A DNA stretch of 64,000 bases from Kangiella taiwanensis (lineage in GTDB: Bacteria > Pseudomonadota > Gammaproteobacteria > Enterobacterales > Kangiellaceae). The stretch lies in NCBI RefSeq assembly GCF_020005165.1, contig NZ_JAHCLT010000003.1:1-64000 (forward strand), given 5' to 3'. Both the position numbers and the translations under genes were made by a program. The number at the start of each line of letters is the position of its first letter. The stretch's first letter is position 1. Below, in pieces: positions 18,002 to 39,303 of the stretch. The notes beneath the pieces are model-generated. The model was given only the letters and a program-made list of their open reading frames with translations. It had not been told where the DNA came from and made no database searches.

Positions 18002-18287
18002 ATGAAAAGCGTGACAGTTACATGAATGTACAAAATAATACTTTACTTCCCCTGTGTATATAGTATTCTACTCACGCTGGTTAAAATAACAGCTAACACG
18101 AAAGATACATATGTTCGATGCTACACCCAAGTGATGAAAAGTACCAACTTTGAACACTTACTGTCGTACCACCGCTATTTGTTATCTAAGTTAATGCCGT
18201 TTTTATCTCAGTAACACCCGCGTTAACGTCCATAGGGGACAAAGAACGCAAACATTAATTTTAAGCAATTAGCTTTGGAGAAATAAG
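18002..18287 (+). other. intergenic region with long cold-shock gene leader
   Basis: No convincing gene is seen in these 286 bases. The stretch from about 18200 to 18287 is the probable long 5' untranslated leader of the cold-shock gene. A GGAG ribosome site lies at 18275-18278. Confidence 0.4.
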
Positions 18288-18494
18288 ATGTCAAAAGTAA
18301 CTGGTACAGTTAAGTGGTTCAACGAGTCTAAAGGTTTTGGTTTCATCGAACAGCAAGCTGGCGAAGACGTATTCGTACACTTCCGCGCTATTCAAGGTGA
18401 CGGTTTCAAAACTTTAGCAGAAGGCCAACAGGTTGAGTTCGAAATCGAGCAAGGCCCAAAAGGCGCTCAAGCTGCTAACGTTACTAAAGTATAA
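18288..18494 (+). CDS. cold-shock protein, CspA family
   Basis: A 68-residue single cold-shock domain that binds single-stranded RNA and DNA. Both nucleic-acid-binding motifs are intact: KGFGFI (RNP1, about 16-21) and VFVHF (RNP2, about 28-32). It probably acts as an RNA chaperone. The distance from the upstream gene is consistent with the long regulatory leader of cold-inducible csp genes. Which paralog (CspA, C, D or E) it corresponds to cannot be decided from the sequence. Confidence 0.93.
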
Positions 18495-18514
18495 TTGATA
18501 CTTTAAACGTTTCA

Positions 18515-18548
18515 AAAAAAAATGCCGCTCAATTGAGCGGCTTTTTTA
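18515..18548. terminator. bidirectional intrinsic terminator
   Basis: Perfect palindrome GCCGCTCAATTGAGCGGC (18524-18541) flanked by nine A residues and by T residues. It separates the cold-shock gene from the convergent ald. Confidence 0.92.
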
Positions 18549-18562
18549 TTGGTTGATACTTT

Positions 18563-35864: not shown

Positions 35865-36593
35865 TTATTTAACGGCGATGAATGATGCGAAATTGTAGTG
35901 TTGGAACCAAGTGTCGAACTGAGTAAAGCCAGCCTCTTTAAAACGCTGATAATGTTGCTCACGGGTATCAGGTATCAACACGTTTTCTAACGCCGCACGT
36001 TTTTGTGCGATTTCCATGTCGCTGTATCCATTGAGTTTTTTAAAGTCATGATGCACATCAATGATATTTGCGTCGAGTTGCTCCGAACCCATGGTTAGCT
36101 TTTCAGACAGCACTAATGCGCCGCCAGTATTGAGACCTTGGTAGATTTTATTGATCAGCTGCTGCCGCTGGCCTCTTGGTAGAAACTGTAAAGTAAAGTT
36201 AAGGACCACAAAGCTGGCGTTTTCAAATTCGATATCATTAATATCAGCCTCAATAACATCTACTGGCATATCAAAGTTATAACCTGACTGAATCAAGCGG
36301 CACCGCTCAATCATAGCTGAGGAGTTATCTATTGCTAATACCGTGCAACTCTCCTTATTCACAGCCTGTCTGATCGATAAGGTTGCAGCGCCTAAAGAGC
36401 AGCCTAAGTCATAAACATTGCTGGTAGGCTGGACATATTTCTTTGCTAATTGGCCAATACCATCAATGATTGCCGTATAACCTGGAACTGAACGCTTGAT
36501 CATGTCAGGAAAGACTTCGACAACTTTTTGGTCAAAGCTAAAGGATTCAACTTGTTCAAGTTGATTGGCGTAAATATTATCCTTTTTGCTCAT
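35865..36593 (-). CDS. cmoA: carboxy-S-adenosyl-L-methionine synthase CmoA
   Basis: A 242-residue enzyme that makes carboxy-SAM from SAM and prephenate, the donor for CmoB. The motif VYDLGCSLGAATLSIRQ (about 59-75) is the cofactor loop, and VVLNFTLQFLPRGQRQ is typical of CmoA. Its use of prephenate ties this operon chemically to the aromatic genes nearby (pheA and aroQ), although co-regulation is not shown. Confidence 0.96.
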   Translation of the reverse strand: MSKKDNIYANQLEQVESFSFDQKVVEVFPDMIKRSVPGYTAIIDGIGQLAKKYVQPTSNVYDLGCSLGAATLSIRQAVNKESCTVLAIDNSSAMIERCRLIQSGYNFDMPVDVIEADINDIEFENASFVVLNFTLQFLPRGQRQQLINKIYQGLNTGGALVLSEKLTMGSEQLDANIIDVHHDFKKLNGYSDMEIAQKRAALENVLIPDTREQHYQRFKEAGFTQFDTWFQHYNFASFIAVK

Positions 36594-36688
36594 AGGCTTG
36601 TCTTGCTCTGTAGTTGGTTTAACACGATGGGCGTAATTCTACTATAATAAGAATAGGTTACCATGATTTATTCAGCAGAAGGGTGGAT

Positions 36689-36952
36689 ATGACGTCGCTT
36701 GAAACGATTAGAGGGAGTATTGATGAGGTTGATGAGGCGCTCGTGCAGCTGATAGAAAAGAGGGCAGAGCTTGTTCAATCCTTAATGTCTTTAAAGCAAG
36801 AGCAGGGCTTGTCTGCCCGCATTCCCGAAAGAGAAGAGGCCATTATCATTGCACTTCATCAGCGTCATGGTAATCATTTTACACGGCAGGAGTTGGAGGC
36901 GATCTATCGTCCAATATTTGATGCGTGTGTAAGGATGCAGCTAAAAAAGTGA
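36689..36952 (+). CDS. chorismate mutase, monofunctional AroQ type
   Basis: An 87-residue all-helical chorismate mutase that converts chorismate to prephenate. It shows IRGSIDEVDEALVQLIEKRAEL in helix 1 (with the conserved Arg and Asp-Glu) and the PEREEAII segment. AAGGG at 36679-36683 is well spaced for the ATG at 36689; a GTG two codons upstream is the alternative. It is a second copy of the activity already present in PheA. It is divergent from cmoA, whose substrate is prephenate. Confidence 0.88.
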   Translation: MTSLETIRGSIDEVDEALVQLIEKRAELVQSLMSLKQEQGLSARIPEREEAIIIALHQRHGNHFTRQELEAIYRPIFDACVRMQLKK

Positions 36953-36970
36953 TAGGCCGTTAGTCAGATA

Positions 36971-37089
36971 TAAAAAAGCCCCCAAAAAGGGGGCTAAATA
37001 GTGCGTCTCAAAATGAGAAGGAGATATTTTGAGATGCGAACACACAGTTAGGGGGTAGTTAACCGTCGTGTTCAGGGTGTACTGTAATT
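36971..37089 (-). ncRNA. candidate small RNA with two C-rich loops
   Basis: Read on the minus strand: stem-loop 1 (37073-37038, arms GAACAC / GTGTTC with inner GGTTA / TAACT and loop ACTACCCCC); stem-loop 2 (37034-37006, perfect arms TCTCAAAAT / ATTTTGAGA, loop ATCTCCTTCTC); then a GC-rich hairpin with a T-run (36995-36972). The loop CTCCTT is complementary to a Shine-Dalgarno sequence. No minus-strand gene uses this terminator. A promoter-like TTACAA (37123-37118), 16 bp, TAGATT (37101-37096) lies upstream. I know no named family that matches. Confidence 0.5.
36972..36995 (-). terminator. minus-strand intrinsic terminator (sRNA candidate)
   Basis: AGCCCCC / GGGGGCT stem (36977-36983 with 36989-36995). 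Six A residues lie on its left, so the T-run is on the minus strand; the plus strand has no T tract after it. Confidence 0.8.
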
Positions 37090-37103
37090 CACGCAAATCT
37101 ATT

Positions 37104-37143
37104 TTGCCATATGGCAATTGTAACAGTTTGTAACATTGTAAAC
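37104..37143. promoter_or_regulatory. palindrome and helically phased direct repeats
   Basis: Perfect palindrome TTGCCATATGGCAA (37104-37117), then TTGTAACA at 37118 and again at 37128 (10 bp apart) and TTGTAAAC at 37136. It overlaps the predicted sRNA promoter and lies upstream of the S9 peptidase, so it could serve either. Confidence 0.5.
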
Positions 37144-37233
37144 CCATAAAAGTTCATCTAAGTCTCAAACCCAACTAGACCTGTTTCACATTTTTTACTA
37201 TGCTAACTTAAATCCAAAAAGCAGAGTAATTGT

Positions 37234-39303
37234 ATGAAAAAAATACTATTTTTCATGGGGTTGTCTTTGTTCGGCGCTATGGGCTCAATGCCAAGCCAAG
37301 CTGCTGAAAACAAAGGCTTAACGTTAGAAGATATCGCTAAAATTGAGTCTGTTGGCTCAGCGAAAGTGTCACCAGACGGCCAATGGGTTGCTTATACCAA
37401 GAGCAATAAGCGCAAGCCGTATATCGACGATGACGGCACAGCTTGGTCAGAATTGTATGTGAAACCAATTGGTGCTGAAGCTAAGCCTTTTATTACTGGT
37501 AAAGTCAATATAGGCTCCATTCGATGGTCAAAAGACAGCAAGCATATTTATTACATAGCAATGCGCAATGACGACACATTCGCCGGTGTTTACAGCATTC
37601 CTGTAGATGGTGGTGAGTCGCAAAAAGTTGTTAGCACTAATAATAATATCCTAAGTTACAGTCTGAATAGTGCTGGTGATAAGTTAGTATTTATCGCTAA
37701 AGAAGGCGCTCCAGAACATAAAGAAGCTTTAGTTCAAAAAGGCTTTCAAGCCAATGTCTACGAAGAAGACATCAAGAATGTTCAAGCATGGCTTTATGAC
37801 TTAAACGACGAGGAAGCCAAGCCACAGGCTATTGATATCGAAGGTAGCGTGATCAGCGCTAAATTCAGTCCGGTTAGCGATCAGCTTCTAGTGCAAGTAT
37901 CGCCAACGCCATTGATTGATGACATCTACATGAAGAAAACTCTTCAAGTCATTGATTTAGATGGTGATGTTGTTGCTAAGTTTAAAACTGAAGGCAAGCA
38001 AGGCAAAGCTGTTTGGTCAACCGATGGTGAGAACATCGCGTTTATCGGTGCGAATGATTATAACGACCCAACGGCTGGTGCTTTGTATATCGCGAACGTC
38101 GATGACGAAACCGTTTCTAAGCGTGTGACTAACGATAACAGCCATGTCATGGATGTTGAGTGGCACAATGATGACTTGATTTATATTGAGCACAAAGGCT
38201 TAGAAAGTCGTGTTGTCAAAGCTGCCGTTAAGCGTCGTATCGCTGCAATGCCTTTGGTTGATTATGGTAATGGCATTCAGCGTAGCCTTTCAGTAGCTGA
38301 CAATGGTGCTGTTTATGTTCTTGCGGATACAGCGAAGCATCCACGAGAGTTGTTTGCCGTTACTGGCGCAGGCATGCAGCGTCTAACCAACTCTAACCCT
38401 TGGTTAGACGATGTTGCATTAGCCAAGCAAGAAGGTTTCGAATATGAAGCGCGTGATGGGCTGAAAATTCAAGGCGTTCTTGTTTATCCGCTGAATTACA
38501 AAAAGGGCAAGCGCTACCCAATGATTGCGTTTATTCACGGTGGCCCAGAAGCTCATCGCTCAAATGGCTGGAATACGCGTTATGCCGATCCGATTCAAGC
38601 GGTTGCAGCCAAAGGCTACTTCGCCTTTATTCCAAACTACCGTGGTAGCACAGGACGTGGTGATGAATTTGCACGTTTAGACCAGCATGCTTACGCTGAT
38701 CCTGAGTTTACCGATATTCTTGATGGTAAATTGGCTCTAGTCGAAAAAGGTATGGTCGATAGTGGTAAAGTTGGTATCACCGGCGGCTCATATGGCGGTT
38801 ACGCTACAGCTTGGTCAGCAACAAAACTGTCTGAGCATTATGCTGCAGCGGTTATGTTTGTGGGTATTTCGAATCAGCTGTCTAAGTTCGGTACAACGGA
38901 CATTCCTAACGAAATGCACGCGGTACACGCTAGAGCTTGGCCTTGGGACGACTATCAGTGGATGCTCGAAACAAGTCCGATTTATCATGTGAAAAATGCT
39001 AGAACCCCTTTATTGATCATGCACGGTGACTCCGATACGCGTGTGCACCCATCACAATCGATGGAGTTGTACCGCTATGTGAAAACCCTAGGACAAGCTC
39101 CTGTGCGTTTGGTCTTGTATCCAGGTGAAGGTCACGGTAACCGTAAAGCTGCAGGACAGTATGATTATTCATTGCGTCTTGTGCGTTGGATGGATCACTA
39201 CTTGAAAGGTGATGGCGGCGAGCCACCAGCTTACGACCTAGAGCATGAGAAAACATTGGAAAAAATCAATTCAGATAAAAAGTCTGAAGAAAAAGACGAC
39301 TAA
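37234..39303 (+). CDS. exported S9 family peptidase (prolyl oligopeptidase type)
   Basis: A 689-residue serine peptidase with a signal peptide (1-23, cleavage near SQA). The N-terminal ~400 residues form a beta-propeller; the C-terminal ~250 form an alpha/beta-hydrolase. The nucleophile is Ser519 in GGSYGGY; Asp in HGDSDTRVH (near 602) and His in GEGHGNR (near 636) complete the triad. It is of the dipeptidyl-peptidase/acylaminoacyl-peptidase group and should trim oligopeptides in the periplasm, fitting growth on protein. A long-stem terminator follows. Confidence 0.94.
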   Translation: MKKILFFMGLSLFGAMGSMPSQAAENKGLTLEDIAKIESVGSAKVSPDGQWVAYTKSNKRKPYIDDDGTAWSELYVKPIGAEAKPFITGKVNIGSIRWSKDSKHIYYIAMRNDDTFAGVYSIPVDGGESQKVVSTNNNILSYSLNSAGDKLVFIAKEGAPEHKEALVQKGFQANVYEEDIKNVQAWLYDLNDEEAKPQAIDIEGSVISAKFSPVSDQLLVQVSPTPLIDDIYMKKTLQVIDLDGDVVAKFKTEGKQGKAVWSTDGENIAFIGANDYNDPTAGALYIANVDDETVSKRVTNDNSHVMDVEWHNDDLIYIEHKGLESRVVKAAVKRRIAAMPLVDYGNGIQRSLSVADNGAVYVLADTAKHPRELFAVTGAGMQRLTNSNPWLDDVALAKQEGFEYEARDGLKIQGVLVYPLNYKKGKRYPMIAFIHGGPEAHRSNGWNTRYADPIQAVAAKGYFAFIPNYRGSTGRGDEFARLDQHAYADPEFTDILDGKLALVEKGMVDSGKVGITGGSYGGYATAWSATKLSEHYAAAVMFVGISNQLSKFGTTDIPNEMHAVHARAWPWDDYQWMLETSPIYHVKNARTPLLIMHGDSDTRVHPSQSMELYRYVKTLGQAPVRLVLYPGEGHGNRKAAGQYDYSLRLVRWMDHYLKGDGGEPPAYDLEHEKTLEKINSDKKSEEKDD

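Follow-up and report, generated by a model that had tools for sequence, protein, structure and literature searches.

The putative small RNA gene described here lies within the 64 kb stretch of Kangiella taiwanensis DNA that was analysed (below, the window), on the minus strand at positions 36972–37073, between two plus-strand genes. The divergent gene (37234–39303) encodes an S9 prolyl-oligopeptidase family protein (PF00326, 1.8e-44) with, by eye, a signal-peptide-like start, and the convergent gene (36683–36952) encodes a type II, AroQ-like chorismate mutase (PF01817, 6.9e-19), beyond which is a minus-strand gene (35865–36593) for a SAM-dependent methyltransferase (PF13649, 8.8e-13) that we take to be CmoA. 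The S9 peptidase gene adjoins the RNA in all 20 Kangiella genomes compared, and the methyltransferase gene is on its same side of the RNA at all 20 loci; the chorismate mutase gene sits between at 14 of these and is absent from the other 6, which keep the RNA. Elsewhere in the window, positions 18109–18549 (plus strand) match the Rfam cspA thermoregulator leader at 100 bits.

The initial annotation described two consecutive minus-strand hairpins with C-rich loops followed by a hairpin and T-run; all three are present, and the predicted fold is the same as the earlier one. Hairpin 1 (37038–37073), supported by paired-site changes and by enrichment of GGGGTA at the ribosome binding sites (RBSs) of S8 proteases, has the loop ACTACCCCC at 37059–37051, in which ACUACCCC is complementary to GGGGUA-type Shine-Dalgarno (SD) sequences. 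Hairpin 2 (37003–37037), which has a near-invariant core, has the anti-SD-like loop ATCTCCTTCTC at 37025–37015 that carries CUCCUUCUC. The intrinsic terminator, AGCCCCC-TTTTT-GGGGGCT-TTTTTT, occupies 36995–36972, and a terminator scan of 36900–37260 found terminators on the minus strand only. The RNA had been given a length of about 119 nt and a 5' end near 37089; the position of the -10 box TACAGT (37086–37081) moves that end to near 37073 and shortens the predicted RNA to about 102 nt. The fold of 37095–36960 has an energy of -39.4 kcal/mol (z = -5.5), and none of 200 dinucleotide shuffles was as stable. By raw energy the region is outside the 15 most stable of the 6390 110-nt segments of the 64 kb, and the locus is singled out by conservation, not by stability. 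A 68-codon minus-strand open reading frame that overlaps the RNA has no Pfam match; short reading frames are similar within a clade and, in the part scanned, none is shared by all clades. Hairpin 1 shows one-base insertions or deletions among the copies.

Our genus set comprises 20 Kangiella genomes of 1.4–2.9 Mb, including that of the window (G000), and the combination of BLAST, a covariance model and a check of each locus places the RNA in all of them, always flanked by the S9 peptidase and methyltransferase genes described above, so that the covariance search in relatives that the initial annotation had proposed comes out in favour of the structure. BLAST at an E value of 0.01 matched 19 of the 20 genomes, G012 being the exception; the G014 match was due to chance, and the true G014 copy is at C4:213393. 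The covariance model, built from 14 copies, also matched 19 of the 20 at E 0.01, and all of the 20 chosen loci at the same threshold (14 of them by construction); under tighter filtering, at E 0.05, it matched 16 genus genomes, G014 included, among 247 genomes of the order. The sole order-level match outside the genus (G263, E 0.0156) comprises, by eye, only the terminator, and in 20 genomes of other Kangiellaceae genera the model found no match at E 0.01. A 21-base hairpin 2 pattern occurs in 13 records (12 Kangiella and 1 Kangiellaceae) of a named-genome collection that may omit the window's own genome, and in no viral contig. The hairpin 2 core, TCTCAAAATA[TCA]CTCCTTCTCATTTTGAGA, is present in 18 of the 20 genomes, including the window's, with a single variable loop base, and the copies in G012 and G014 contain an additional A. 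Terminator stems of relatives include GCCCGCC/GGCGGGC and GGCTTCC/GGAAGCC. In the six clade C genomes (G009, G012, G014–G017) hairpin 1 is replaced by a sequence with a different loop; five others (G001, G003, G005, G011, G013) form clade B.

Covariation was measured on 14 sequences, 12 of them distinct. Standard pairs fill 97.4% of the pair cells, and this value drops to 34–44% in a control with slid partners. Both-sided changes occur at 8 pairs, among them 7 of the 11 pairs of hairpin 1, and the covariation score of 0.321 (0.145 when shuffled) was reached in none of 500 shuffles; the count of both-sided changes alone was not beyond shuffles (92 of 500). Hairpin 1 and the terminator thus covary, and hairpin 2 is invariant in this 14-sequence alignment, so that its stem is supported by invariance rather than by covariation.

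Upstream of the RNA the -10 box TACAGT (37081–37086, minus strand) is TAAAGT in most relatives, in the context TTAAAGT. The helically phased repeats reported earlier are TGTTACA repeats at 37135–37119 (minus strand), and they make up an OmpR-type box, TGTTACAAACTGTTACA, that resembles the E. coli OmpR repeat and whose GTTACA half-site is conserved. This half-site lies 28–29 bp before the TAAAGT or TACAGT box in all 20 copies, in a search that imposed the GTTACA core and left the spacing free. The 10-bp repeat is TGTAACGCTTTGTTACA in some relatives, and the upstream half-site is degenerate in clade B (GAAAT). Passages of PMC5438342 give the E. coli OmpR motif as KWWGTTACAT and its repeat as GTTACATTTTGTTACAT, and the window's 10-bp repeat agrees with that E. 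coli consensus. An OmpR orthologue is among the genome's gene products (scoring 441 bits, with a cut-off of 331), so both marks of an OmpR-regulated promoter, upstream GTTACA-type 10-bp repeats and the regulator itself, are present. The window site scores 20.3 bits, the best in the 864 kb scanned; OmpR-like sites above 11 bits number 12 there and 16 in one random sequence, so that as a class they are not enriched. We note that the next-best box, GTTGTAACGAGTTGTTACATGTCGA at G000:C1:371063, precedes another S9 peptidase gene by 98 bp; its score is not beyond chance, as 12 of 100 equally long random sequences reach it (P 0.12). Of the promoter-like element in the initial annotation the conserved -10 box stands, but a generic sigma-70 scan does not call a promoter for the RNA, and its -35 region is weak by eye. 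OmpR-type control of the RNA appears likely from these motifs.

An intrinsic terminator, a conserved structure and a promoter of its own, the last recognized by its conservation, are what is expected of a trans-acting small RNA. Genus-wide structure, covariation, the conserved -10 box, the activator-type repeat and the T-run all agree with the minus-strand reading first proposed, and we infer transcription in that direction; that the locus encodes a genuine minus-strand small RNA seems to us nearly certain. Conservation of the gene, its structure, the geometry of its promoter and the complementarity of its loops to the messages discussed below are evident in the sequences themselves.

Of the 2.56 Mb genome, 864 kb (800 kb of contig C1 plus the window) were scanned for targets, and 776 of the 781 predicted open reading frames there were scored by pairing positions -45 to +15 around the start codon with the loop and 3' arm of hairpin 2. 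The top duplex, at the RBS of an M4 metalloprotease gene, has 18 bp and an energy of -29.9 kcal/mol (rank 1 of 776; next gene, -21.1) and covers that gene's SD; this site was first noticed in a pattern search and ranked afterwards. None of 100 letter-shuffled queries reached -29.9, the best giving -25.4. The gene's 736 amino acid product has a signal-peptide-like start and matches Pfam PF01447, PF02868 and PPC. A search of the genome with the window RNA's hairpin 2, allowing at most 3 mismatches, found three places: the RNA itself, the M4 gene (1 mismatch) and one other (3 mismatches). Each genome's own RNA pairs with its M4 RBS at -26.7 to -31.3 kcal/mol in G000, G018, G002, G004 and G019, and at -18.7 in G007. 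Across the genus GAGAAGGAG-N-ATG marks scattered genes among the loci read, with the M4 gene recurring. Once copies of the RNA and of the M4 site are set aside, the matches listed for the other-arm complement AATGAGAAGGAGGTATT, with at most 3 mismatches, show no visible excess over those of a reversed control. As a possible second target ctaD was set aside: its -21.1 kcal/mol here is equalled by 26 of 100 shuffled queries, its values across the 20 genomes are -10.3 to -21.1, and its site by eye is within the end of the upstream gene.

In clade B pairing between loop 2 and the M4 RBS is weak (-8.2 to -11.8 kcal/mol; rank 131 of 353 in G001), and the M4 leaders there contain, some 95 nt ahead of the start codon, CACTAAGGGG, which makes ten contiguous pairs with the same genome's loop 1 (-19.0 to -20.5). 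Five clade A leaders (G000, G018, G002, G004, G019) have AGGGGGTA about 116–131 nt before the start (-12.3 to -19.8), and that of G007 has only AGGGGTAAGG at -146 (-11.9); in the window's genome the M4 leader's loop 1 site ranks only 20th of 706. A paired GCTGAAG...CTTCAGC arm lies beside AGGGGGTA in several genomes, and the leader may be structured. Nine of the 20 genomes (the six of clade C, G006, G010 and G008) have hairpin 2 but lack a full-length M4 orthologue, so the M4 gene is not the sole target; G008, a 55%-complete genome, has no M4 match whatever. Base-pairing near a target RBS, as expected of a trans-acting RNA, is thus seen at the level of sequence, and on that footing we think it likely that the M4 protease mRNA is a direct target.

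Loop 1 leads to a second class of secreted proteases, the S8 subtilases, whose genes were identified by a catalytic-site pattern. GGGGTA serves as the SD of 4 of 8 S8 genes and 6 of 717 others in the window's genome (Fisher p 1.3e-6), and of 5 of 6 S8 genes and 5 of 350 others in G001 (Fisher p 3e-8); the test arose from scans of the same stretches, and these S8 genes are clustered paralogues or orthologues, so inheritance may account for a shared RBS and the p-values overstate independence. Against 353 genes in 400 kb of G001 the loop 1 of that genome ranks its S8 genes 1, 2, 4, 6, 7 and 177. The window RNA's loop 1 ranks the eight S8 genes of its own genome from 17 to 633 of 706, none in the top 10 (rank-sum p 0.003). 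Nineteen further loci yielded a readable S8 leader in 13 (from 13 genomes), two being outside the S8 pattern, one cut by a contig end and three giving nothing; all 13 leaders bear ACTAAGGGG, TTAGGGGG or a GGGGTAG element. At the SD position are CACTAAGGGG in G006, G007, G005, G001 and G011 and ACTAAGGGG in G003; the clade C leaders have TTAGGGGG (G009, G015) or AAGGGGTAGG (G017), and those of G010, G012, G014 and G016 have GGGGTAGT about 30–38 nt before the start, separate from a TAGGAG SD. It is about an even question whether S8 protease mRNAs would be targets of the window RNA or its siblings, as this complementarity suggests.

These siblings are RNA-like loci elsewhere in the genome. In the 800 kb of contig C1 that were scanned CTACCCC occurs intergenically before a terminator four times, the highest count among 42 permutations (mean 0.52), and three of the four sites fall in two loci that share the loop 1 motif. 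One (G000:C1:428.86–429.06k, plus strand) has the stem AACTTTAGCAC/GTGTTAAAGTT and loop CATACTACCCCTTA followed by a strong terminator, the loop being complementary to S8 protease RBSs; the other (G000:C1:48.85–49.05k, minus strand) has a hairpin loop that holds CTCTCCTT and ACTACCCC and a terminator of -24.7 kcal/mol, and is divergent from a response regulator gene that we call CpxR-like by resemblance (it has an OmpR-family match). The sibling loops carry ACUACCCCUU and fit the S8 RBSs of the window's genome better than does window loop 1, which would be expected if the S8 link belonged to these two loci and the window RNA had different targets, an explanation we find rather unlikely. It is specifically the window RNA's hairpin 2 that matches the M4 RBS, and the clade B window RNA itself has a CCCCUUAGUG loop, the one that gave the S8 ranks in G001 cited above. 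A wider, tentative idea is that a set of sibling RNAs, including a two-headed member driven by OmpR, might control secreted proteases through a common ACUACCCC loop, and that the SDs or leaders of these proteases might be customised to GGGGUA(G) so that the RBS acts as a regulon tag.

Other hairpins of comparable design were seen in relatives. Six genomes (G006, G003, G005, G001, G013, G011) contain a conserved hairpin, GATATAAGAT-[CU-rich loop]-ATCTTATATC, with a terminator; its CU-rich loop is CCCTCCTAACCC or CTCCTCCTACCCC, its stem is AT-rich, and it is just 3' of a gene whose product ends ...FMQT[ST]H in those read, which makes it a possible 3'-UTR small RNA of like design. At G001:C1:62.7–62.9k (minus strand) a hairpin with loop TTAGCCCCTCAAAAA is followed by a terminator and a CCCCCTTAGTG stretch, and by eye is perhaps a similar RNA.

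Our preferred reading, which we hold to be somewhat probable from the sequence features, is that the RNA is trans-acting, controlled by OmpR~P, and lowers exoprotease synthesis through two SD-complementary loops. We infer that OmpR~P would bind the upstream box and switch on the approximately 102-nt RNA from its weak promoter; loop 2 with its 3' stem arm would pair with the secreted M4 metalloprotease message at its RBS, and loop 1 with GGGGUA-type SD or leader elements of the S8 subtilases and the M4 leader. This pairing, presumably helped by Hfq, would block 30S binding and so repress exoprotease synthesis. The RNA thus probably turns secreted protease production down while a membrane stress sensor is active. 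If this is true, a marine protein degrader uses RNA to couple its envelope sensor to its exoprotease output, and there is an explanation for the subtilases' odd GGGGUA ribosome-binding sites.

Loop 2 might instead act more generally. A real, expressed RNA whose second loop mimics the 16S tail could pair modestly with many SDs, the protease matches being the tip of a larger set or a coincidence, and this would suit the retention of loop 2 in genomes that lack the M4 gene. The clade B and C loop ACCUCCUUCUC has ACCUCCUU in common with the 16S 3' tail, and in the window's genome the shared stretch is CUCCUU. We think this explanation unlikely: the 18-bp M4 match runs well beyond any SD and is an outlier among 776 genes, and in several genomes the S8 and M4 leaders have their loop 1 complements outside the SD. 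Nor do we think it likely that CACTAAGGGGTA is a DNA operator of protease genes, or an inherited RBS, unrelated to the RNA. The S8 genes are paralogous and the exact complement of CACTAAGGGGTA is found as DNA within the RNA-like loci as well, but its position varies (at the SD, or about 30–38 or about 95 nt before the ATG), unlike that of an operator or a mere SD. A plus-strand element, either a CsrA-binding leader or a structure at the 3' end of the chorismate mutase mRNA, is hardly credible, for although that strand also folds (z = -4.3), with AAGGAG in a loop, and has the best sub-threshold Rfam match (Hrs1, 24.8 of 56.4 bits), all 20 copies have the T-run, -10 box and activator box in minus-strand orientation, the scan of 36900–37260 has no plus-strand terminator, and the chorismate mutase gene is missing from 6 of the 20 RNA-bearing loci; the CsrA role stays the weaker alternative that the initial annotation took it to be.

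The AAGGAG loop is like those of CsrB and RsmZ, but it is on the opposite strand of the Kangiella RNA; RNAs of that class carry GGA in several hairpins of the transcribed strand, and the RNA region has a single GGA, on the plus strand, with promoter and terminator facing the other way. Neither in the window nor at the 20 loci does this RNA match any Rfam model at the gathering level, which also sets aside membership of the OmrA/OmrB family, and a literature search on Kangiella small RNAs found no report of it among the papers listed. The best sub-threshold minus-strand match is to RF02278, a toxic small RNA of Betaproteobacteria (23.4 of 50 bits; no gathering-level match among the 20 loci), and membership of that family was rejected. 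RF02278, the S17 RNAs and other double-hairpin RNAs resemble the Kangiella RNA in having a short hairpin, a CU-rich unpaired UCUCCU, a terminator and an invariant pairing region, and would also share with it the blocking of RBSs at many genes; passages of PMC11722255 and PMC5688073 describe this CU-rich hairpin design and blocking of many RBSs for the S17 RNAs, and what the former relates of RF02278/S17-type RNAs pairing with many RBSs would also suit the general action of loop 2 considered above. The likeness nonetheless seems to extend no further than UCUCCU and the terminator, the bacterial class is another one, and the Kangiella RNA has an OmpR-type promoter. With OmrA and OmrB, described in part of PMC12692685 as OmpR-activated, RBS-blocking RNAs whose targets include the protease gene ompT, it would share its proposed OmpR activation, RBS blocking and a protease target; unlike them it would pair by its loops and not by its 5' end, and ompR is a weak candidate for a feedback target (-10.9 and -13.6 kcal/mol for single loops; -23.8 for the whole RNA, a value without control). 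GsrN of Caulobacter, a Sigma-T controlled RNA, is described in passages of PMC5869019 as pairing the C-rich loop of its 5' hairpin with a G-rich mRNA leader and activating katG; the Kangiella RNA likewise has a C-rich-loop hairpin at its 5' end that would pair with a G-rich mRNA leader, a likeness in design, and GsrN warns that a C-rich loop can activate as well. The Kangiella RNA would work like S17/RF02278 and OmrA/B yet by the tests run belongs to neither family; the known kind is that of trans-acting RNAs with SD-complementary loops, and to this kind the Kangiella RNA is a new addition.
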